Source: Jaapia argillacea MUCL 33604 (taxonomy: Eukaryota > Basidiomycota > Agaricomycetes > Jaapiales > Jaapiaceae). From it: DNA of 64,000 nt. The DNA lies in assembly GCA_000697665.1 (NCBI GenBank), contig KL197727.1, positions 248,001 to 312,000 of the forward strand, in the 5' to 3' direction. The notes beneath the pieces were generated by a model. It ran no database searches, was not told the origin of the DNA, and saw nothing but the letters and a program-made list of their open reading frames with translations. The position numbers and the translations under genes are program-made. Of the stretch, positions 14,247-62,352 are shown one piece after another. Numbering within the stretch: the first letter of the stretch is position 1; the number at the start of each line of letters is the position of its first letter.

Positions 14247-15338
14247 AACTACAACAACGAGCTCAACAGTGAGGTGTACCCTCCCCAATGTTTTAATCGT
14301 TGTGTGACGTTGTCTTACAGATGAACAATCACTTTCTCTGTCTCGCTATGGCTTTGTGTGTGTTGCCAACTTGACGCAGGAAGGGAACGAGCGTCGAGGA
14401 GTTACGTGCAAAGTTGAGGGATGAAGAGAGGGAACGGAGACGGAAAGCAGCTGCTCAAGCCGAAGCTGCTTCGATACCGCAAAAGCAAGGAGTTCAACCT
14501 ACTCCTTCAGCATCCCCGCCAACCCCTGGCACATCCATTCGCAAAGACAGCTCTCCTGTCAAAGTGCGTCTCTCCGTCTATCGTAATGTCGTCACAATTC
14601 ACTCATACCTACCCTATCACGCAGCCCTTATCATCCTTCCTAAACCTTCCCCGCCTCCTACAAACTCCCCACACCCCAGCCCAAATATCCGCTCTTTGGA
14701 CAGCTTATCACGCCTCCCGTTCTCAAGGCACGGGCCGAGGCTATATCTGTGCCACAGTTCCTCTCGAAGCATACGAGAAGATGATGGGTGTAGCCAAACG
14801 GTATCCAGCTTTCATCGTTCCCGTTCCTCGCCAAGCACCTCTAGAAGAGGGAGAAGTGGAAAAGAAGGCGTACGAATTTTATTATTTGCAATGGGCGTTC
14901 CACGAGGTACCCGAAGTACCCACTTATGAGAGGCTTACCGATCCTTTTGCCGCTCTCATCCCCCCCTCACCTTCCACCTCACCCCACAACCCACAAACTT
15001 CCACAGTCCTGTTCACCCCTCTGCTAGAATACAAACTTCGTCAAACATTCGCCACTCCCTACCTTGTATTGACGCATTATACCGACTTGGCGCAGACGCA
15101 TGGGGTGGTCCTGTTGCGTGGTGAGATCACACCCTCGGCTGCATCTGGTTCGGGAGGTGGAGGAGAGGGGTGGATGTTGAGTCAGCAGGACGCGCAGTTG
15201 TTGGCTGTGGGTGTGCAGAGGTTTTATTTGTGGGGTGGAGGAGGGAAGGAAGAAGGTTTGTTGAAGAAGTTCCATGAGAGTCCTGCAGAGTTTAGTTGGG
15301 AGGATTTGTTGGAGTTGGGTGATCCCACCGCTATATAG
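14105..15338 (+). CDS. ATP11: Mitochondrial F1-ATP synthase assembly factor Atp11
   Basis: Atp11 is a matrix chaperone that binds unassembled F1 beta subunits. The ATG at 14105 opens an Arg/Leu/Ser-rich, acid-free presequence, followed by DFASKYADKLQQRAQ, a typical Atp11 entry. Intron 1 (about 14270-14379) is long for this window. Exon 2 encodes GTSVEELRAKLRDEERERRR and a Pro/Ser linker. Exon 3 begins PLSSFLNLPRL after a CACGCAG acceptor and holds the conserved core: QISALWTAYHASR, GYICATVPLEAYEKM, YPAFIVPVPR, EFYYLQWAF, LVLTHYTDLAQTHGVVLLRG and a C-terminal LLKKFHESPAEFSWEDLLEL. The length of about 325 residues fits fungal Atp11. Its first exon and promoter are duplicated upstream as a relic. 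Confidence 0.92.
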
Positions 15339-15962
15339 ATGTGGGAGCGATCAACAGGATGGTTGTCTTGCCCCATGTATCTCTTATCGGCCCCCCGTAC
15401 TTTTGCTTTACCTTGGTCGGCGTCCGAGAACATGACCGTTGATCAACACACAAATACGCACTTATTGTCCGGTGGCGTCCGCCTCCACTAGACTTGTCTT
15501 TAGAACGATAGAACATTCAATCGACCGCCTCGTTGCAACCTTCTCGACTAGTGCTGGATTCTCCTGTCATAGTTTCTTTGACTAGAAGCCTGAGGCCTCA
15601 GGCTTCTAATGACCAAGTGCACTTTATCTGATGCGTAGCCTACGCAATACGTGAGAGTCATTTGCCTCGAGTCATCGACGCAAATTTGGACGGTCATCGA
15701 GCTTGTCCTCGACTCCACGCTCGCAAGTTCAACTGGTATCGCTCCAGTTCTTTACTGCGCTTTGGCATAAAGCCATAGGTCGACTGAGCACTTTTACGGG
15801 GCTCTTGTCATTCATTGCGTCATAACACACCAGTAAGTGCCCATTTCCGCAATGATCTCCACTCAACCGGGACTTCACTAACCAACCTCTTACTTATGAA
15901 CCCTCCAATTTCAAGCGATCCCTTAATCCACGCACTCTCATCCCCAATACCAAAACCACATA
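15339..15962. other. Intergenic between ATP11 and the oxidoreductase gene
   Basis: Both flanking genes are on the plus strand. This 624-base gap contains a perfect 26-nt palindrome (15583-15608) and otherwise no supported gene. Confidence 0.5.
15583..15608. repeat. Perfect 26-nt palindrome (hairpin or dyad)
   Basis: The half-site TAGAAGCCTGAGG is followed immediately by its exact reverse complement, with no spacer. It lies about 245 bases past the ATP11 stop and 355 bases before the next ATG. It could form a 3'-end hairpin in the ATP11 transcript, a cruciform, or a dyad binding site. Confidence 0.95.
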
Positions 15963-16634
15963 ATGCGCGTCCTCATCCTAGGCGGCACAGGTCCTTCCGG
16001 TCTCCTCCTTATCCAAACCGCCCTCGCAGCATCGCATACCGTCATAATCTACGCTCGTTCCCCTCATAAACTCCCCGAGTCCATAACATCCAACACCTCC
16101 ATCATAGTCATCAAAGGCGAACTAACCGACGCCGACGAGCTCTCCAAAGCCATGGAAACAGGCGTTCACGCAGTCATCTCCGCTCTCGGCCCCCAAGCGA
16201 GTTTGATGAGTTGGAAGTACCCAAGGAACACACCATTAGCAGAGGGTTATAAAGTGGTGTTGGAAGTGATGAAGAGATATAATGTGAAGAGGTTGATAGC
16301 GTTGGGGACTCCGAGTATGAAAGACCCCAACGATAAATTCGATTTGGTGATGAAGGGTTTGATAACGGGTGTTGCTGTTGGTGCCAATGGTGCTTATAGA
16401 GATATAGTGGCTATTGGGGAGGTTATTAGAGGGGATGAGGAATTGCTTTGGACGATTGCGAGAGTGCCTTTGTTGACGAATGATGAGGGGAAGGAGTTTG
16501 TGGTGGGGTATGTTGGGGATGGACCGGTGAAGGGGAAGTATAAGTTGTCGAGGGCGGCTTGGGCAGCGTTTGTTGTGGGGGAGTTGGAGAAGAATGAGTG
16601 GGTGAAGGCAGCGCCGCTTGTTACTTCACCTTGA
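15963..16634 (+). CDS. NAD(P)-binding Rossmann oxidoreductase (NmrA/atypical SDR)
   Basis: A single-exon gene of 223 residues. The N-terminus MRVLILGGTGPSGLLLIQTA has the GxxGxxG dinucleotide-binding loop of atypical short-chain dehydrogenases. YARSPHKLPE follows as the cofactor-discriminating second strand; an Arg there suggests NADP(H). Strand 3 gives VIKGELTDADEL and strand 4 AVISALGP. The RLIALGTPSMKD region stands where extended SDRs have their active-site Ser. The size and order fit NAD(P)H-binding proteins of the flavin-reductase/NmrA-like group that act as small reductases or redox sensors. The substrate is unknown. The ATG at 15963 starts directly at the Rossmann strand, as usual for this group. 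Confidence 0.85.
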   Translation: MRVLILGGTGPSGLLLIQTALAASHTVIIYARSPHKLPESITSNTSIIVIKGELTDADELSKAMETGVHAVISALGPQASLMSWKYPRNTPLAEGYKVVLEVMKRYNVKRLIALGTPSMKDPNDKFDLVMKGLITGVAVGANGAYRDIVAIGEVIRGDEELLWTIARVPLLTNDEGKEFVVGYVGDGPVKGKYKLSRAAWAAFVVGELEKNEWVKAAPLVTSP

Positions 16635-16801
16635 TCTTGGCCCTTGGGTTGTCGTTATGGAGGTTAAGCTCGTGCCTTTTTTCATGTTATTCTTTCTTAA
16701 TCGGTATGGATAGAGTCTCGCGCATGCTGTGCATGCATATCTTGGTAACTTGGGGATTGGTAGCAAGTCGTATTATGCCAGGAATTCTGGATGAAACTAG
16801 T

Positions 16802-17572
16802 CTATGGTAAGGGTGTCCGGTGCCAGTCACCAGCTTGCCGTGCATCCTCCTCAACAGCCCTAATAGCTTCTTCAACCTCACCCTCAGCCTCGACATCTAA
16901 CTTGACCATCTCCCTCCCGAACATCTTTCCAAACCGCTTCACTAACTCAGGTATCTCACCCTCGACTGTAGCATCCTTTCCGATGCATCCAGCTTTGACG
17001 TCTTCCAAGCCACATGCCACTATTTTATTGAACCATGCGAGGGGCTCAGGAGTGATGTTCATCGCAAAACCATGAGATGTAAGTCTGTGGCGGACTTGAA
17101 CACCTATGCTGGCAATCTTGGTCTGAGCATCAAGGAAGACTCCGGTGTGTTCGGAAGGGATGAGTTTTAGCCCATGGGCCTCGACCAACTGACCCTCCAA
17201 GACCTTTTGGAGCTTACAAATATACTCCCGAATACCCAACACCGATTCGCCTCTGGCTAAATCCAACAGGGGGTACCCCACGATTTGGCCAGGACCGTGG
17301 TAGGTGAGTTGGCCGCCTCGTTGTGTGGAGACAAAGTCTGCACCGAGGCGGGTGAGACGGGTACGTTCGGAGTGGAGTTCGTCGTCTGTTTGCCGACGGC
17401 CTGCGGTGTAGACTGGGCGGTGTTGGAGAAGGAGGAGGACGTCTTTGTGCGTGGACGGTGTGGCGCGGCGCTGGAGCAGTTGGAGGGAGTGCAGCTGCTC
17501 TTGCAGGGCGAGCGTACGGGTGTAGGGCAGTGGCAGGCGGAAGTAGTGGTACGCGAGGGGAGGGAGGCTCAT
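16802..17572 (-). CDS. LIP2: Lipoyl(octanoyl) transferase (LipB/Lip2)
   Basis: This mitochondrial enzyme moves octanoyl groups from acyl carrier protein to lipoyl domains (first glycine-cleavage H protein), the first step of lipoate attachment. Single exon, 256 residues. The family signature RGGQLTYHGPGQIVGYPLLD is present (residues about 84-103). The catalytic Lys lies in TKIASIGVQVRH, and the catalytic Cys in FNKIVACGLED. LLLLQHRPVYTAGRR near the N-terminus is the conserved 'HxxVYTxGRR' block. No clear presequence is seen beyond Leu/Tyr-rich residues; an unannotated 5' exon could add one, since an upstream frame at 17604-17870 does not splice in clearly. Assignment is firm. Confidence 0.93.
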   Translation of the reverse strand: MSLPPLAYHYFRLPLPYTRTLALQEQLHSLQLLQRRATPSTHKDVLLLLQHRPVYTAGRRQTDDELHSERTRLTRLGADFVSTQRGGQLTYHGPGQIVGYPLLDLARGESVLGIREYICKLQKVLEGQLVEAHGLKLIPSEHTGVFLDAQTKIASIGVQVRHRLTSHGFAMNITPEPLAWFNKIVACGLEDVKAGCIGKDATVEGEIPELVKRFGKMFGREMVKLDVEAEGEVEEAIRAVEEDARQAGDWHRTPLP

Positions 17573-19557
17573 CGTGGCGGGTGGAAACCTGTAAAACGTG
17601 GGGTTAGGGTCCCTTGCCCACCCCGCCGTGACTTTGGTAGTTTACTAGTCTGACAAATTGCTCATTTACAAACATGCCTTCAAGACGAATTGTCTTTGGG
17701 TTTGAATAAATTTTCACCCAAGAGGACCCCAAATACTGTGGACGCTCAGTATATTCCTCGTAGCCCATGTTCTCACTCCCCGGTGAGCTGCATTCATCTT
17801 CTCTGACCGGGAATTTATTTCGGAGGCGTTTACACCAATACACCTGGTCACTGACATGTTTCTCTTTCATAGAAGCTTTGTCCCTCTCGGGAAGCCACGA
17901 TTGAGCCCTTTGTGCGGCCTTGAAACGGCGGCACTGTGCACCCGCACCTCCCAGGTCACGGCGATGTAATCACATCGCTGCGATACGACTACCACCGGGT
18001 GGGTCAACGTCTCCCGCGATAATGTGCGTATCTCGAGACCTTACGTGGCTGCCGTTAAACATCTTATCACCAGAGCCATGTCCTCGGGACGTCATCGCAC
18101 CTATCGAATGGACGCGATTTGCAACAAACGTGGCAGATGTCGTCTTCTCCTTGTTAAATTCCTCATCGCTTCTCCACGGCGTCCAGCGAACCTCTCCCGT
18201 ACTTTGACCGACATGTCACACCCGACGTCCCAGAATCATGTTCACTGATTGGCCATCTTGCTCGTCTTTCCCTCATTCATCAGCCCCCGTACTCATCGTA
18301 TCTTGACAGAATCCGTCCATCTCCCTCGCTATCAAAACCCCTCCGTCGGTGCCTTTCTTCGCGTCTATTCATCATCCACGATAATCATCAAGCCGATGAC
18401 TATCATACGTGCCTGTCGGGCGAAGTTGTGGCGCAATCTGTGAGTCCACAGAAGCTACAAGTCCCGACCCTCATACGCCTATCGTATTACCACCTAACTG
18501 AATCTCTCCGATCAATATCTCTCGCACGCCTGTCCTGACACGTCGGTCACTTTCACTTTCGCATCAGTCTTCTCATGGAAGCTTTTGCGTCGCTCCTTAT
18601 GCGGCTGAGAAGCTTCTCCTCCAGGACCGGCTTCTCCCATGCTGTGCTCCACAAACTTCGCTAATAACGTCCAGACCAGTATCTGATAATCGTGGAGGAC
18701 CGCGCGCGCGCTGGGCGCTGGGCCTTCTCTACCGCCATCTCACGGTTGGTCTAAATCGCTCCATGCATTGACGGTAATTTTAATCTATCACCTATCGCTA
18801 GTGAATCCCGCCTCGTGGGTAGAAACTCGATGCTCGCGCCCTCCTTTGAACAAGCTCCAAGTTCTCTTCCATGTCAAGACCTCAAGATGTCGAGGGCGAG
18901 AGGAAAAACCATCACACCAGCATATCAGAATCGCTCCATAACATACCTCTCTCGTGGTGTCTCCACCTTAACCTCACAATTCCATATCACACCCTGTGTT
19001 CCAAGACACCCATTTAGAACGCCGTGCGAGACGTGTGCCAGTCTCCGGCGTTCTCCAGCGCCACAGACAAGTCTTCTTCTTCGCCGTGGTGCCTTGTCAG
19101 GGTCGAGGTATACGAGGAAATTTTGATGGGTCGCCAATATGCGTGTATATGCTATCTCACCGATCATCCTCACCGAAGGGTGAGACTGAGATTCGCTACG
19201 TGGTTCTATCTCCCCATCGTTTTCTTCAGGGTCGGTGTTGTTCAATCTATGATAGGTGGCGCACCGAGTGATGGATTTTTTTGTGTGTCCTTGTGCACGA
19301 GTTGGAAGTGGGTTTCGTCCGATGGAAACGCGTAAACGGACCCTTCGTGTTTGGTGTGTCTGCCCTCACGCCACGCACTCTGGGGGTGGGATGAGGCACA
19401 TGGGAATGCACCTAGGCCTTCGATTCATTGCAGAGGGACGAGGCCTCGTACATTGGTGCGTTTCTTCTGCGCGTGGTGTTAGTTGATTGACTTGGCATTG
19501 ACACCTTACATGCGACGACTCGGGGGCATGCCCTCGCCAAGTTCTAAATTGACGCTC
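17573..19557. other. Gene-poor stretch
   Basis: This is almost 2 kb without a supported gene. Open frames here lack a start or splice continuity. The best is a minus frame at about 18925-19245 containing HQNFLVYLDPDKAPRRRR; it has no upstream ATG in frame. A short (CG) run lies near 18702. The part next to 17572 should contain the LIP2 promoter. Confidence 0.4.
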
Positions 19558-20145: not shown

Positions 20146-20586
20146 TTACATCCAAGCCAAGTTATCATCCTCCAACATTTCGGCCTCGAACTAAGAAAGA
20201 GTCATGGTCAGTTCGCATCCTAGAATGTAATTGATCTCGCTTGGAACTTACAGTTGGGACCAGATCCTCCGTAAGCGTGGCAGAACTATCGTTCCATTTC
20301 CGGCTCATTTTCTGTTATCTAGCGTTAGCTTTGCCCGAGAGGGACGATTTACTGTCCTAGAGGGTACTCACTGTGCTTGCCGGGCTTCCAAGTTTCCCTT
20401 TCAGGAATAAGCGCAGAGTGCGGGCTAAGAGGGAGCGCTTCTTTGGGTAGACTTCTTTATGATCCTTCTGTGAATGGGGAGGAGATGAGGTATGAGCTTC
20501 GCCCGATATGTCAAGTGGAAGATGTAGCTGACCATCATAACTGTAGATGATTTCTCGTAGCAAGGCGAGTCGAAGGACTTGATCAT
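20146..20586 (-). CDS. Small basic protein with C-terminal LEDDN box, paralog 1
   Basis: Not recognised. Four exons with phase-0 junctions throughout: 20542-20586 (or to 20533 with the alternative GTCAGC donor), 20372-20467, 20252-20311 and 20146-20190. The protein has 81 or 84 residues. The centre is strongly basic (HKEVYPKKRSLLARTLRLFL), followed by a Ser/Thr/Asp stretch (MSRKWNDSSATLTEDLVPT). The terminal exon encodes only FEAEMLEDDNLAWM. The last exon resembles that of the gene at 22745-23181, which has the same four-exon, phase-0 structure on the same strand. There is no TM or signal peptide. A TATA box lies about 125 bases upstream. The acidic-aromatic tail looks like a short interaction motif. 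Confidence 0.72.
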
Positions 20587-22744
20587 AGTGAGTCGTGAAA
20601 TAAACGTGAAGAGGTCGTTAAAAGTCTTGAACTGGGGGACCGGAGCTCAGTTCACTTGTATCATGCGATGAGAGGGGAACTTGGGGAAATGAAAGGTCGG
20701 TCTGGTCGACTTTTATACTTGAATGGCATGCGGTTTCCCTTCACATCCCCATCCATAAAGGTGGAGGGTATTCTTGGTGCTTCTGCTATCGAAGATGTGG
20801 GGGGACAGAGCCGGCTGAAGTCCGGATGTAATCTGCCCGGGTATCCGCAACGCAAAGCCGAGGTATTGTCTTTGATCTTTATGGTTGCTGTCGATCGTCC
20901 CCTCCCTTGTGAATCCCCTTTACCTCCGCCCAAAAACTTTCCAACGTCTTCAATTCTCTCCACATGTTGGCACTTCGATTCCTAGCCCTGCCTGACAAAT
21001 ATCGTCAACCTTGTTCTTTTACCTTGCGTATATGATGGGCTCACCCGTCGCGCTCTATTTCAAGGGGCGTAGTGGGAAAGGAAAGTGCGTATGTTTAGAC
21101 GAACGGTATGTCCGTACAAGACCGACCATTCCGTCGGACAAGTCAGCTGCAAGCGCTAACCACTGCTTAAAATGGGCATGCGACCTGCGACAACTGCGAT
21201 ACATCGCGCACGGCGACCATACTTACAGGAGTCCCGACAACGGTCGTGGATAGGTCATCATTCCCCACACGGAGCTAAGAAAAGGATTTAGAGCTGGGGT
21301 GAAATAACGTTGTAAGGAATCGTTGCGCATGATTGTTTGCCGTAAGCCGGGCAATCAATCAATTGGAAGTGCCACTCATGACCAGCCATCCTCTGTAAAA
21401 CATTGCCCATTGAAATATTTAACAGGTGACATGTGTGAGGGATGTCATTGGGAATCGAAATCATCGTATAGTTGAGGGATGGGACAAGGGTCGCTCCACC
21501 TCTATTGTTAATGACTGCAAGAGTCGAAGTATGAATCAATCATTGTAATGTGTGCTTGTTTCTTGGAAAGGACGCCCCTTTTTGCTTCACCGTCACTCCT
21601 GGGAAGTCGATTTCGTGAAGAAGTTAAAAGAAAAAAATGCCGGTGGATTAGAATGCCGGTGACCAATGCTACGAGTCGTCAGGCGGCCGCCATCGAGGTT
21701 GTGGTACCGCTTGTCAGATGGGATGCTCAAACGTCTGGAAAACAAGGAGAGGAACCATAATTTACTCTCTTTTGGACGCCGGAGAGATTCGTCCGAGTCG
21801 AAGCATGCAGGAAGGTGTGGTCAGTAAGCGGCTACTAAGATATACGTTTATTCAGCGAGGATTTCCGTACCCACCACATGAGGGGCCCGTCCAGGGCAGT
21901 TGACGTAGTCTAGAGCAGCTATTCCGAGAACCAGGTTGAAGAGCAAGTTGAAGTCTAAGAGAGTATCTGGTGGATGGACTCATCACGTGAGCTTGACACT
22001 GCTGATGAAGACATTGTTGATTATCCCGGTGCTATGTATACACAAGCCCCTCTTGGAGACAAGTGGCGAAACCGCCCTCGGCTCTGACTGAAATAATCAG
22101 TCGGGTGAAGTCGTATCCTCTGAGGAATTCTCGAAAGCGTGACTAACAGAAGTGTAAGGCACCCAGCCTGAGCTTCGACAGTGTAATGTCAAAATTTGCT
22201 GACTCTGAGGGAGGCTCAGGCGGCCGTCGAGGTGGTAATGCTTGCATATCCGGTGAATATTCTTGGGACAATGCTATGTCAGACGTCGGTTCGGGTAGGC
22301 TTTGACTAACTAGAAAAGCTTCTTTGCAAGACCGTGACGGGAGCCGTCGGAAGCGAAGGGTAGAGCCTGATCCGTTCCTGGGTATCGGAGGGACGGGATG
22401 AAGGAGCGATGTCTAAAAGGGTTGAGAGGGCTCAAATTCAAGCCAAGATGTATACCGCGAACAAAAATATCCACGAGGGTGACATGAAGTCGGCTGAAGC
22501 ACTAAGACGTCACTCGGTGACATGACTGAATGAACCAAGTAAGCAATATGGCAGGTGCTGGTCAGGATTCGGATTCAAGCTTATATCGACATTCCAATGC
22601 CACACAGTAGGACACGAAGGACAAGAAACATCATCGGCATTGGCAGCAATACTATACAAACATTATTACACATGGGCAGTGGCCCCATAACCTAAGGGCG
22701 GATGACACCAACTGGGACGGGTATATCGAGGGCCTGAAATGACC
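20587..22744. other. Gene-poor stretch between the two LEDDN-box genes
   Basis: About 2.2 kb. It contains the promoter of paralog 1 near 20587-20800. A minus frame at 21288-21530 (after a possible TTGCAG acceptor) has an ordinary amino-acid mix but no recognisable start or family. A small inverted repeat, gactga/tcagtc with a 5-base loop, lies near 22086. No gene is supported. Confidence 0.4.
20711..20717 (-). promoter_or_regulatory. TATA box of the LEDDN-box paralog 1 gene
   Basis: The minus strand reads AAGTATAAAAG here, about 125 bases upstream of the ATG at 20586. It is a near-consensus TATA element at a plausible distance. Confidence 0.5.
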
Positions 22745-23181
22745 TCAAGTACGGCGAGAGCGTTTCTTTTGCTTAACCGGAGCCGCAGTCCTCCCCCAAG
22801 CCATGTTATCATCTTCCAATAGCTCGGCCTGGTATTTGAATCACAATGAGTGGAAGTTCTATCAGGTATCAGATTACTACTCACAATTGAGCTGGATTCA
22901 GACGACGACACAGAGATCGGTAGAGTGATCGAAGAGTACGACGGTGGCTAGGGAGCAACTTCAGCCATCGGACGCGGGCACCAAGGAGACTGCACATACC
23001 AATGAGGCGGCGTAAACGGATGAGGGGTCTGAAGTCATCTGAGACGAAGACGAGGTGCTTGTCGAGAGGGTTGAATCCCTTCGCGAACGCTATTGTGAGG
23101 CACAGGTCAATCAGAGTGTTTGGTGACGACGAGATCTGTACCGACCTTCGAGCTGAAGGAAAGGCGCCTAAGAGAGAACAT
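22745..23181 (-). CDS. Small Ser-rich protein with C-terminal LEDDN box, paralog 2
   Basis: Not recognised. Four exons, all phase 0: 23146-23181, 23000-23089, 22885-22947 and 22745-22828, giving exactly 90 residues. Exon 1 is basic (MFSLRRLSFSSK). The middle is almost wholly Ser/Thr (STLSTSTSSSSQM, then PPSYSSITLPISVSSSESSS). The last exon gives AELLEDDNMAWGRTAAPVKQ followed by a basic tail KKRSRRT. The AExLEDDNxAW core and its position directly after the last intron match the gene at 20146-20586, although the N-terminal parts differ. Branch points (CTGAT, GCTGAAG) and acceptors are good. No TM is seen. The basic tail could be a nuclear-localisation signal. The family is probably restricted to Tremellomycetes, but this is a guess. 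Confidence 0.72.
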
Positions 23182-45975: not shown

Positions 45976-48154
45976 TCAACTCCAGTTCGACGAGGGATCG
46001 GCGGGTGGTGTTCGCGCCGAGTCCTGAGGCTTCCGTACGGCACCGGGAGACCTTCGCTGCGGCTCCAATGTCCTGAAGCTTGGTGCTTCAGACCTACCCT
46101 CCGACCTCCCGTCCGACCTGCCAGCATCTGAAGGGGCACGTTCTGATCGAGATCCTCCCCCCCCCCCTCCGGCCTCCGACCGCTCGTCGAGATACCTAGG
46201 GGGTAGCTCTACAATCTCCGCTCCATTGTCAGCATAAACAGTAACGGGAGCGCGGCCACCATCGTGATGCACGACATAAACGTTTGGCCTCTCAGAATTC
46301 CTCCGTCCAGCATTCCGTGATGTAGAGGATTCCGCATTCGAATGTGATAGAGAAGGTACTGGACCCGGTGTATGAATCGGCGAAGTTGGGGGCGGGGACC
46401 CGGGATGGGTAACGTGGGAGGTTTCGCTGGGCATCACGAAAGGTTCGATATGATACTGGCCTCCACCACCAGCCCTCAAACTCCCAAAGCTCCCAATGGT
46501 GTTATGGGTATGTCTTGTATCCAACGTCGTTGCGAAACTTCTCGTATTGGCTGACGACATTAGCGTGGGTTCCGCTGTGGGCACGGAACTGTAAACCTGA
46601 TGCGAAGTGCTCGAAAAGCCGTGGACCCCACCGTCGAGATCTGAGGTTTTCCTCACTGGCATAACTCGATCCATATCGTCGTGAGACTCCCCTCGAGGTC
46701 GACTGCAGAAGTAGGCAATTAGGCCGCCCAGAAGGGCTCCGAGAGCGAGACCACCGACGCCAGTGCCAATTGCTACGACGGGTTTGAGACCGGAGCCCCC
46801 CGATACACTACTAGTGGATAAATGAAGTGAGAACGGGCTCGAAAATTGGCTAGGAAGTAGTACTTACGTATCAGTCTGGGCTAGGCAGGCTGTGGGACCC
46901 CCTCCACCACTGTGCAATGGTCCGTTTGCCCAGGTATTGCCTTGCGAGTCGACGAGAGAAATGTAGAAGGGGGAACCCCAAGACTGTCATACATACATGT
47001 CAGGTCACTGGTGGGAGAGTCAGAAAGGACGAAGCCTAACCAAAGATACGGTCCAATTAATGGGAGCCATGCTATTCGAGGTGATATTTGCGGGTGGATG
47101 TAGAGTAGGTGCGATCTGGCAATGGAGGTAAGAAAAATTAGAAACACAATCCGTGATAAATGGGAAGGACGTACCGTCAGCGTGAAGGGTGGCGTCCCGT
47201 TTTTTGGCGTGATTGATAAATCAGTGCACTAGCAGGGATCTACATTGAGACACCTTCAAGAAATCGGCTCCAAATGCAAACCTACCTGATCTGGCCAACC
47301 GTATTGTGACCAAGAACCCAGCGATTGCGCTCCTTGTACGTCCAATGCTGAAGCGGGATATGTTAGATTTTGACACACAGGTGGGTTGTCCAGTGTTGAA
47401 TTGATGGCGGGGATGACAGTGTATTGTCGTTGGCACCCTCCTGGGACGCCATTCGCGTCAAACTACACATCCTCGTCAGATTGCGACGTATGAAAGTGAA
47501 ATCGTGTGACCAACATACCATGCAAATTTGGAACTATGTCGGTCAGCGATCAGCCTCAGTGTAAGCGGAGAGAGTGAGTACTTGAGCTCACCTGGGTACC
47601 AGGGATAAAAGGAACGATCCAATCCTGGGTACATGGACATTGATAAGGTCAATTCTAGTGAGGGAAGGGAAACAGACTTACAAAAGTCAATCCATTTCCA
47701 GCGGGAATGATGAATGGCACGACGAAAGTCCTATCGGGACTTATCAGCGTCCTGACTAGATCCGGTTCCGAAGAGGGACGTACGAAGTGTAGACTTGGAG
47801 ATAATACGGAGCGTTTGGGTTTGGGCTGGGTGAAAGCTCAATAAATTGAGAAAAGAAAAGAATCATAAATGTAACGAACCCAGTAGCACTGCCACGCGAC
47901 CACGAAAGATGAATGGGATCGCATTGTGCTTTGTGCGTCCAAAAACAATCAATTCAATGGTTACCACCACGCGAGCCACGAGGAAGCGTACCTGTCGTAG
48001 GAATCGGAACAGCTTGTGAAGCAGGAGCGAAATCAAAGTAGAATCCTTGCTCCAAAAACGGGGTAAATTTCGCCTTGACCGCCGGCGTGAAAGTGAGGAA
48101 ACATCCCGTCCATAGTGCAGCTGTTGCGAGGCGAAAGTACGAGGCGCCCATCAT
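45976..48154 (-). CDS. Single-pass cell-surface protein with Ser/Pro-rich cytosolic tail
   Basis: Not recognised as a named protein. The start at 48154 gives a signal peptide (LATAALWTGCFLTFTPAVKA). About eight short exons encode the extracellular part: FYFDFAPASQAVPIPTT, PIHLSWSRGSATG, PYYLQVYTS, VPFIIPAGNGL, QICMFDANGVPGGCQRQYTV and LDNPPVCQNLTYPASAL. Then come NGTPPFTLTVAPSLHPPANI and ACLAQTDTVSG. The TM is VVAIGTGVGGLALGALLGGL followed by IAYFCSRPRG. The cytosolic tail of about 230 residues is Ser/Pro/Gly/Arg-rich and includes NVYVVHHDGGRAPVTVYADN and ELPPRYLDERSE. The fold resembles fungal surface proteins with beta domains and PPXY-like tail motifs. No enzymatic motif is seen. It could be a wall-stress sensor. 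Confidence 0.75.
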
Positions 48155-51777: not shown

Positions 51778-54430
51778 ATGCCTAAAGTCAGGAATAAATT
51801 CTATGCTGTCAAGATTGGTCGGGGCGGCCCAGCTATCTACACCACGTGGGACGAGGTAAGTGTCGTTGCATTGTTCGGTGAACATTCCCCTGACTGGTGC
51901 AATCAAACATAGTGCAAAGCAAAGGTTCGCATCTACTCCTACTCGTACCCTGTGATTACACTGAATTTTCTCTGCAGACAGAGAGGTTCCCTGGGGCCGT
52001 TCATAAGAGTTTCACCTCGAAAAGTCAGGCAGAAGCATGGCTCCGAGTTCCAGAACATCGGGGTACGCACTCTCATCTTCCTTCACCCGATAATCAGAGC
52101 TCACTGCCTTCCTTATGACATCGCAGTGTATATGCGTGATCCCGAGGAGCTGACACAGGACGAGGAGGATCTGCTGTGGCAACAATTTCCACGCTGTGCG
52201 ACAGAGGAGCCGCCGGAGTTCATTGAGAGTGGGCCGAGTGTGGCAGGGATTAGTGCGCGTACAGAGGAAGAGGATTTTATCAGGCTTGATGAGGCAATGG
52301 ATACAATACCTCCTCCGCCCCCACGTGAAGTGCCACTAGTCCTCAGCCCTGAACAGATGATGGTTCTAGCGAAGGTTAAGCAGGGTGGGAGTGTCTTCTT
52401 CACTGGGTCGGCTGGTTCGTCATTGTCCTTCTGTCTTTGCTCCCTGTTAATCTTGTTATTATCAACCAATCATTGGGCAGGCACGGGTAAATCTGTTCTC
52501 CTCCGCGAGATCATCAGCTCCCTGAGAGAAAACTCGTATGAGCGTGACTCGGTTGCCATCACCGCATCTACTGGCATCGCAGCTGTCAACATTGGGGGCT
52601 CAACTCTGCATTCGTGGGCTGGTATTGGATTGGGTGCGGAACCTAAGGAAAAGCTTGCAGGAAAGCTTCTCGGGCAGAAGAAGGTTGAACCTGCCAAGAA
52701 CAGGTGGAGGCAGGTTAAAACCTTGATCATTGATGAAAGTATGTCCACATCGTGATTGTATATCCGTCCGATCTACTGACGACGGTTCCTTAGTCTCAAT
52801 GATCGATGGTGTGTTGTTTGACAAGTTGGTATGTCCTTTCCATCTCCATCATCTCGAAACTGAGCAAATTTTCGAAGGAATACGTGGCTCGGGCTTTGCG
52901 GTTCAATGACAAACCCTTTGGTGGGATTCAGGTAATCAACCTGCTGGATATAACAAACTTGATCTTACAATTTCCTTCAGCTCGTGCTTTCAGGAGACTT
53001 TTGCCAGCTTCCCCCAGTGCCAGGTCGAAGCAACGGTGTTCAGATACCCGCTAAGTTTGCATTTGACTCCGACTCGTGGTCCAGATGTATTGGAAAGCCC
53101 ATTACACTGAAAAAGGTTTTCCGGCAAAAGGACCAAGGTTTGTTTGTTGACTTTCAGAAGCTTTCCATCCTTACTTGTAATCCAGCATTTGTCGATATGC
53201 TCAACTCGATGCGATTCGGAAAGTTGACTCCTCAAGCCGTTACGGAGTTTCGGAAGCTATCTCGGCGTGTGGTATATGACGACGCCATCGAGCCTACCGA
53301 ACTGTCCGTATCGTCTTAGCTTATTTTTGGCGGTTTTGACAATTTGTTCCGTGACAGCTACCCAACACGGAGAGAAGTCGAAGAGGCCAATCGCACGCGT
53401 CTGCAACAACTGCCTGATCCCCTGCATACATACGTCGCTCAAGACGTCCCTGGTGTTAACGACAAAGGAGAGCGTGTTTCACTCGAAACCATGGAACGAT
53501 TACTGGAGAGGTTGGTGGCCACGAAAGAGATTTCTCTTAAGGTCCGTCGTTTACTGGTCCGGTAGGATTTGAGGCTAACTACGATGACAAACATAGATTG
53601 GAGCTCAAGTTATGCTAATCAAAGTCAGTTGTCAATTCTCATATAACTGCTCCTCTGATCTTTAGGGAAATGTACAGAACCTGGTGCAAGGATCGTTGGT
53701 GAACGGCTCACTGGGCCAAATCATAGAATTCAGAACACCAAAGGATGCTCTCAGAGATCATGTTGAGATCGCTCAAGCCCAATCAGACAACAAACAACAC
53801 CCCTATGGTGGATCAGATCCCCGTACGCAGACAGCTCAACTGCCTCAAAAGTTACTGGAAAGCACCCGCGTATGGCCTTTGGTCCAATTTACAAACGGGG
53901 AGAAAAGGCTATGCGTTCCCGCTGAGTTTACGGTCAACAACGCTTCGGGAGACATCGAGGCCAAACGAGACCAGGTAGCTTTCTCCTGCCCATATGCTAT
54001 CGCCCGGAGCTGAGCCAATTGTTCAGGTACCTCTAATATTGGCGTGGGCCCTCAGCGTGCACAAATCCCAGGGCCAGACTCTTGAGAGAGTCAAGGTTGA
54101 CTTGGGCCGCACATTTGAGAAGGGGCAAGGTAAGGCATGGCATTCCCCTTGACTCTGACTTTCGTTTCACACTTCCTTAGCATATGTTGCTCTGTCGCGA
54201 GCGACAGGTATGGCAGCTCTGCAAGTACTCAACTTCGTTCCTTCAAAGTTCGTAACATGTCGCCATCCCATTTCCCACCATTATTGATTCTCACCATCAG
54301 AGTGGAAGCACATCCCCGCGTGCTGCAATGGTACAATCAAATCGAAGAAGACGACATGTTCGATTCCATTGATGGTGAGATGGACAGCGAGGAAGCAATG
54401 GCAGCGTATTACGATCAAGACGATTGGTGA
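51778..54430 (+). CDS. PIF1: PIF1-family helicase with N-terminal RNase H1-type hybrid-binding domain
   Basis: Pif1 is a 5'-3' DNA helicase that removes telomerase from ends, unwinds G-quadruplexes and R-loops, and maintains mtDNA. The ATG at 51778 starts [20 protein letters not shown], then a 12-nt microexon encoding CKAK, then [20 protein letters not shown]. This is the hybrid-binding fold of RNase H1 N-termini (Cauli_VI/viroplasmin), an RNA:DNA-binding module. The helicase core follows: [20 protein letters not shown] (Walker A, split by an intron), [30 protein letters not shown] (Walker B), [15 protein letters not shown] (motif III), [37 protein letters not shown] (motif V/VI region) and AYVALSRAT with [11 protein letters not shown]-terminus: acidic, [13 protein letters not shown]. 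About 12 exons. Confidence 0.92.
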
Positions 54431-60416: not shown

Positions 60417-62352
60417 TCAGGCAACCGTCAAAATACCACCAACAACGCTGAATACGACAGCCACAGTCAAACCGATAAGGCTCCTTGCGTCATTGAAGAT
60501 AGGAACGGCCCCACTGCTATGGGTGCCGCTGGACGAGCCGCCCGAGCCCGATCCACCAGTTGTCGCAGGAGCGCTGGGTGTGAAGGTGGCCGAGGGGTTG
60601 GTCAAGCAAGAGCTTGCAGCCGAATTGGCGGCCGAGACGGTCGAGGGAGCATGAGAGTTCACCGTACCGTTTCCTGCAAAGCTGCAAGCCTGTGCATTGC
60701 GGTTGTTGGCCTCGTAGTACTCGCTCATTACAAATGAAAGCTTGGTGTCTAGATGATAAATGTGTGAGATTGGCGAAGTGGTCTGGAATTCAAACGAGGC
60801 TTACTAGGGTCACACATCGAAACAGGGCCATAGACACCAGATGTTCCATTTCCGGCGATGGCATTGCAGTTGCCACCGGATTGGCCGAGGAGTGAGCACG
60901 CTGTGTCAAGAAGAGTCCCAACAATGGCGGTGGTGTTTGTGGTTTGGGGGGTGAACTGACAGCTGAGGCTGCTCTCGAGACACGAACACGCGGCGTCGTT
61001 TGGAGTTGGGGGAAGAGTGGTGGATGCAAGGAGATCGGCACTTTGCACAGGGCACACCGGGTAGACGGTGGAACCGGCGCCTGATTGGGTTGGGGTATTC
61101 GGTGGGGTAGCATTGCCGTACTGAGTCTGCAAGTTGGTGAAGTCACTGCTGGTCGTGACGGTCTTCCCATCCGTGGAAATTGTAACCATTCCGAACTGCC
61201 CCTGGGCACTGGTGGCGGGGAAGTAGGAGAAAGCGATTCCACCAGACCACACAGGCGACATCTGGCTGCTCAGGAGCGCGCCAACCTCTGTAAAGAGACG
61301 AGGTGGGGAGGTGATGCAGCCAAACTCGCTGAAGTAGGCAGGAATGTTGTAGCTAGCGAAGTCGGATTCCACGCCAGAGTAGGATGCTTGGAATGTAGAT
61401 GCACCACACCATTCACTGTCAAAAATGACATTGAGTGCAACCCCACCCAGTGAGAGAGGGGGAGGCTTACTAGTTGTTGAGACCATAAAGATCGATAGCA
61501 GTGGCACCCGAATTAGCACCCGAAATGTCGCACGAAAGGAAATTGGCAAGAGGTTGCCTCCAGCTGGAATCGGCATCAATGGCGGCATAGCCTACCAATG
61601 CAGACGAAGAGATCGAAGTCCTACACCATATATGTGAATTAATGCGCAGGGCGGAGTGGAGACAAACGAACAAGTAGGTTTTAACGTCCCTAGCTGCGGC
61701 TTTGATATACGACGCAGCAGCGGTTCCATTGGCAGCAATAACGACTTCGTTACCAACGTTGTACGCGAGGACGTTGTCATATTTTGAGAATGCGTTTATG
61801 GTGCCAAGGTAGAGATCCAACAGGTTTGTCGACCAAGAGGGGGCATTACGGTCCATGGAGCCATTGAGAGGAAGAGAAAGATCAATACTGCGAAAAGTAT
61901 TAGAGTCAACGATGGTGAAAATAGGGGAACTAGGAGAACGAACATGGTATAGATACCAGCACCACTGAGGGCTTGCATGCACGAGTCATGATTCAATGAA
62001 GAGTTAACACTGTATACTCGAATGGTGTTGACCCCGAGCTGTTGAAGGTAGGGCAAATCACGAGCACAGGATGTGCCATCAGCCAGCGGGTCGATGAAGC
62101 TGTTAGGCTCGAGGAAAGGGTTGCTGGCACTGGCGACGACAGCACCTAATCAGGGGTCAGGAACGCCTGGAGAGGGAAGAGAGTGGAGGATGTCGTACCT
62201 TGCTCCTGATAAGCAACACCCTTGATGTAAAACCTGTTTCCATCAGCGGTGTAGAGATATCTCCCGGCCCTGGTGACCTTGGAAATAGCAGACACGCCCG
62301 ATAGGAGGGCAGCAGCGAGGGCCACAGCAGTGGCGCAGACGGTGGTCCGCAT
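60417..62352 (-). CDS. GAS1: GPI-anchored beta-1,3-glucanosyltransferase (GH72 with X8/CBM43)
   Basis: This cell-wall enzyme cuts and rejoins beta-1,3-glucan chains on the outer face of the plasma membrane. The start at 62352 gives a signal peptide ([14 protein letters not shown]). The GH72 catalytic domain has [41 protein letters not shown] (acid/base Glu) and AYFSEFGC (nucleophile Glu), with about six exons. The X8 module follows with the family's cysteines: [49 protein letters not shown] and YGPVSMCDP. After a Ser/Thr/Gly stretch, the C-terminus has [20 protein letters not shown], a hydrophobic GPI-signal end. Stop at 60417. Between X8 and the tail the last exon starts [20 protein letters not shown]. 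Confidence 0.93.

Follow-up and report, generated by a model that had tools for sequence, protein, structure and literature searches.

Three small predicted genes in the genome of Jaapia argillacea share a LEDDN box near the C-terminus, a candidate docking motif on the last exon

Results

Two four-exon gene models in the window

The window, a stretch of 64,000 nucleotides from contig KL197727.1 of Jaapia argillacea MUCL 33604, holds two small genes with a common C-terminal box. Both lie on the minus strand, which the sequence-only reading that first drew attention to them did not give. That reading had placed four exons with phase-0 junctions at 20146-20586 and at 22745-23181; these coordinates match the sequence, and consensus sites splice exactly so. 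As read from the sequence, the predicted spliced products are 84 aa (gene 1) and 90 aa (gene 2), each from four exons, with 18, 32 and 20 codons ahead of the tail exon in gene 1 and 12, 30 and 21 in gene 2. All six introns of the two genes are GT-AG, 52-65 nt long and in phase 0. The features are listed below in window positions.

20533 to 20586, minus strand: gene 1 exon 1, start codon, 18 codons
20372 to 20467, minus strand: gene 1 exon 2, 32 codons, basic
20252 to 20311, minus strand: gene 1 exon 3, 20 codons
20146 to 20190, minus strand: gene 1 exon 4, Phe-Glu, box AEMLEDDNLAW, Met, stop
20152 to 20184, minus strand: gene 1 LEDDN box, AEMLEDDNLAW
20711 to 20717, minus strand: TATA-like TATAAAA, about 125 nt upstream of the gene 1 ATG, a candidate picked by eye
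23146 to 23181, minus strand: gene 2 exon 1, start codon, 12 codons, RRLSF inside
23000 to 23089, minus strand: gene 2 exon 2, 30 codons, Ser-rich, RRDST inside
22885 to 22947, minus strand: gene 2 exon 3, 21 codons
22745 to 22828, minus strand: gene 2 exon 4, box AELLEDDNMAW, 16-residue basic tail, stop
22796 to 22828, minus strand: gene 2 LEDDN box, AELLEDDNMAW

The box had been said to begin directly after the last intron in both genes. This is so in gene 2, whereas in gene 1 two codons, Phe-Glu, intervene. It does end or nearly end the protein, as had also been proposed, with one residue past the box Trp in gene 1 and 16 more in gene 2. A stretch at 22436-22463 with a 71% match to the gene 1 tail DNA, listed as a third direct-repeat copy, is probably due to chance.

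Between 17.9 and 28.5 kb, none of the 10 ORFs scanned matched a Pfam family above the cut-off, and one gave a sub-threshold match of 12.4 bits against 21. This agrees with the description of the surroundings as a gene-poor block as far as these 10, a selection of the longer ORFs, are concerned. On its low side, at 14418-17641, the block is bordered by ORFs with matches to ATP11, an NAD(P)H-binding family and a lipoyl ligase family. Further along the window are an ORF on the plus strand that matches a PIF1-like helicase (51913-52752, E 2.8e-18) and, on the minus strand, a GH72 glucanosyltransferase of the fungal cell wall that carries an X8 domain (60752-61591); a match to the Ysc84 family was also noted. 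Genome-wide, the exon-level matches to PF17667, a fungal kinase family, number 66, many of them on contigs C4, C7, C42 and C46; 63 are over the cut-off, 3 of these only with their neighbours. With GH72-X8 and Ysc84, this kinase family points to a fungal source. No 5.8S rRNA turned up among the 39 of 1321 candidates scored.

A third copy of the box elsewhere in the genome

A degenerate box pattern gave one further exact copy, on contig C2. The pair in the window had been thought to stand alone; instead, the 43.7 Mb genome holds three exact boxes, and the third belongs to a gene among housekeeping ORFs. A second pattern returned the same three copies at zero mismatches, while 0.005-0.007 exact matches per genome per pattern would be expected by chance, assuming independent bases of the window's composition. 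The second pattern gave 15 genome matches altogether, 12 of them with one or two mismatches, and its reversed control gave 2; none of the 12 near-matches, read in context by eye, looked like a terminal box exon. By the family's own definition, the consensus AE[ILM]LEDDN[LM]AW begins no more than two codons into the last exon in all three exact copies; two of the proteins stop a single residue past the Trp.

Predicted splicing of the C2 gene yields a protein of 135 aa with the C-terminus AEILEDDNLAWM-stop and four phase-0 introns of 49-59 nt. Exon 1 of this model is a lone ATG, an internal Met of the next exon being the alternative start. Because the donor of the last intron, GTAGCA, is weaker, the model failed the strict splice test described below; when any GT is admitted as donor it passes, along with 40 of 4,752 shuffled anchors, and we therefore regard it as less secure than the models in the window. 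The gene lies between TIP49/RVB and enolase ORFs, and of the six ORFs scanned nearby, four pass the Pfam cut-off: two for TIP49, one for enolase and one for ribosomal L2, which reads as mitochondrial-type. A charged ORF that adjoins the gene on the minus strand (L024, 7650-8150) resembles a conserved eukaryotic protein by eye and has a single, sub-threshold Pfam match.

Within the organism's own genome, the one match to 219 bases of gene 2 DNA was the query itself, and the whole-protein queries found their own loci and one weak match each (C33, E 2.88; C3, E 5.38; C1, E 0.366), none of which we took as a relative. The protein search was so weak, with none of the three queries recovering the other two genes and the C2 query losing its own tail exon, that other divergent members may have escaped it.

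Rarity of the spliced models

The gene models were compared with those that arise in shuffled sequence. An anchor was any YAG followed by 12 open codons. A strict model then needed three phase-0 introns leading back to an ATG, each of 45-70 nt with a GTNNGY donor and a YTNA branch-like site; loose models were allowed any GT, 45-80 nt and no branch site. Strict models were found at 0 of 42,635 anchors in dinucleotide-shuffled sequence (40 shuffles; 0 of 3,267 in a separate run), at 0 of 998 on the window's real plus strand and at 4 of 992 on its minus strand. The box exons account for two of these four; the strict criteria were picked after the models had been seen and fitted to them, which inflates the rarity. 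The other two anchors, at 47115 and 47533, possibly belong to one ordinary multi-exon gene. Loose models occurred at 487 of 6,361 shuffled anchors, 127 of 992 on the real minus strand and 71 of 998 on the real plus strand, and the splice consensus therefore carries the weight of the chance result. At up to three mismatches, the box DNA pattern has 2 matches in the window against 0.12 expected. Codon usage, scored from a training set of only 860 codons, gave z values over shuffles of 1.76 for gene 1, 0.43 for gene 2 and 1.08 for C2; on the same training, the raw score is below zero for gene 2 and C2, and another frame of gene 2 scores higher.

Conservation of the box and divergence of the bodies

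Over the 33 bases of the box, C2 departs from gene 1 at 9 bases, 7 of them third positions, with 1 of 11 residues altered, and from gene 2 at 10 bases, again 7 of them third positions, with 2 residues altered. Random changes of equal number kept the peptide as well in 0 of 100,000 trials for C2 and gene 1 and in 13 of 100,000 for C2 and gene 2, a test that is partly circular because C2 was found through its peptide match. With that bias in the test, the sequence comparison of C2 and gene 1 indicates that the box peptide is kept while its DNA drifts. The boxes of genes 1 and 2 differ at 5 bases with 2 residue changes (P 0.058), and this pair alone shows no purifying selection; the tail DNA of the two genes is 86% identical across 35 nt.

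The remainder of the proteins had been described as diverged, and indeed no pair of bodies is significantly similar, the observed score being reached by 219, 428 and 221 shuffles out of 1000. The same was found for the 300-nt upstream stretches (219, 272 and 477 of 500 shuffles as high). Promoter similarity over the 70 nt before the ATG was not clearly above shuffles, 64 of 1000 scoring as high for C2 and gene 1, 59 for C2 and gene 2, and 997 for genes 1 and 2.

The bodies have net charges of +8, +6 and +3, and Ser, Thr and Pro make up 24-43% of the three whole proteins. In a charge-hydropathy measure, gene 1 lies on the folded side of the line, and the other two, C2 and gene 2, lie on the disordered side. 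We regard the bodies as basic, Ser/Thr-rich and, in at least two of the three, probably disordered. R-R-x-S/T sites, as in PKA-type substrates and a pattern chosen post hoc, number 4 against 0.73 in shuffles (P 0.0044), two being in C2 (RRRS, RRKS), two in gene 2 (RRLS, RRDS) and none in gene 1. The likewise post hoc pattern [RK][RK]x[ST] occurs 7 times against 1.69 (P 0.0018), and the looser R-x-x-S/T is not enriched over shuffles (8 against 7.41, P 0.48).

Comparison with known families

None of the predicted spliced proteins has a Pfam-A match at an E of 10 or less, and the bacterial and archaeal NCBIfam library gave nothing above its curated cut-off; its one sub-threshold match, at 13.6 bits (E 0.061) where the cut-off is 70, pairs gene 1 with the glutamine synthetase inactivation factor. 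Against PDB chains, phmmer found no match for the two tails as one query, and four uL23 chains matched by the C2 protein (E 0.24-0.94) were too weak to accept. IMG/VR contained 135 stretches that fit the pattern, none confirmed as a relative by tblastn, in a search that is weak for so short a motif. The earlier statement that no known family carries the box accordingly holds for Pfam, NCBIfam, PDB and IMG/VR as searched. Among the titles listed, the literature on the box peptide offered nothing on topic, and that on fungal orphan genes nothing specific.

Discussion

The three genes resemble lineage-specific (orphan) small fungal genes in being small, spliced and without a Pfam or NCBIfam family or a convincing PDB relative, and differ from them in a conserved motif common to three genes of one genome. 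The other likeness is to short-linear-motif adaptors, whose bodies are disordered and phosphorylated: here too a short conserved acidic/aromatic peptide is joined to a variable low-complexity body with kinase-type sites. Compared by eye with the WASP-type acidic-Trp, 9aaTAD, NES, AIM/LIR and kinesin W-acidic consensuses, the LEDDN box fits none of them well.

We give an even chance to the reading that these are a three-gene family of small proteins (84, 90 and 135 aa) in which variable bodies are followed by a docking motif on a separate last exon. We infer that the motif, AE(I/L/M)LEDDN(L/M)AW, is a docking peptide. The tail would probably form an amphipathic turn or helix and bind one conserved protein, while the timing or place of binding would be governed by the body and its kinase-type R-R-x-S/T sites; each protein would then be an adaptor or regulator with a constant docking tail and a variable kinase-addressed body. 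On such a scheme the bodies would be free to diverge because it is mainly the tail that is constrained.

That the tail has a phase-0 exon to itself is compatible with exon shuffling as well as with old family descent. Had the tail exon been copied with its 3' splice site behind unrelated exons, the proteins would be related by the tail only, as is suggested by bodies and 300-nt upstream stretches that lack significant similarity when genes 1 and 2 still have 86% DNA identity in the tail over 35 nt. Nevertheless, the two genes agree in exon number, have similar exon sizes and have phase-0 introns throughout, and bodies of such a kind can diverge quickly anyway; we consider shuffling unlikely, though it merits attention.

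Still less probable, in our judgement, is that the window copies, or one of them, arose by recent duplication of the C2 gene and are now decaying into pseudogenes, recognisable by the tail alone. Their location, where none of the 10 tested ORFs has a Pfam match above the cut-off, as against that of C2 among housekeeping ORFs, would suit such decay. Decay should, however, erase open phase-0 models and good splice sites along with the body, and both copies keep them. We also doubt strongly that the tail serves as a signal for degradation or location instead of docking a partner: two of the three proteins do stop one residue past the Trp, but gene 2 runs 16 residues beyond the box, and a free C-terminus at the Trp is therefore not required. 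Chance ORFs with a coincidental peptide are most improbable, for although loose splice rules build models at many shuffled anchors and codon usage, scored from the small training set, gives no clear call either way, three exact boxes stand against 0.005 expected, each 0 or two codons after the 3' end of a modelled intron.

Returning to a family with a docking tail, the LEDDN-box genes escape domain searches because their bodies have no detectable homology, and they illustrate how motif-only families can slip past such searches. The C2 copy, between TIP49/RVB and enolase, provides a synteny anchor for locating orthologues by position. If the tail is a docking peptide, a 12-residue bait could fish out its partner. 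Tentatively, we suggest that the genes may represent an undescribed family of fungal microproteins whose terminal-exon motif binds a conserved hub, the diverging bodies of the paralogues, with their AGC-kinase-type sites, perhaps plugging different signals into the same partner.
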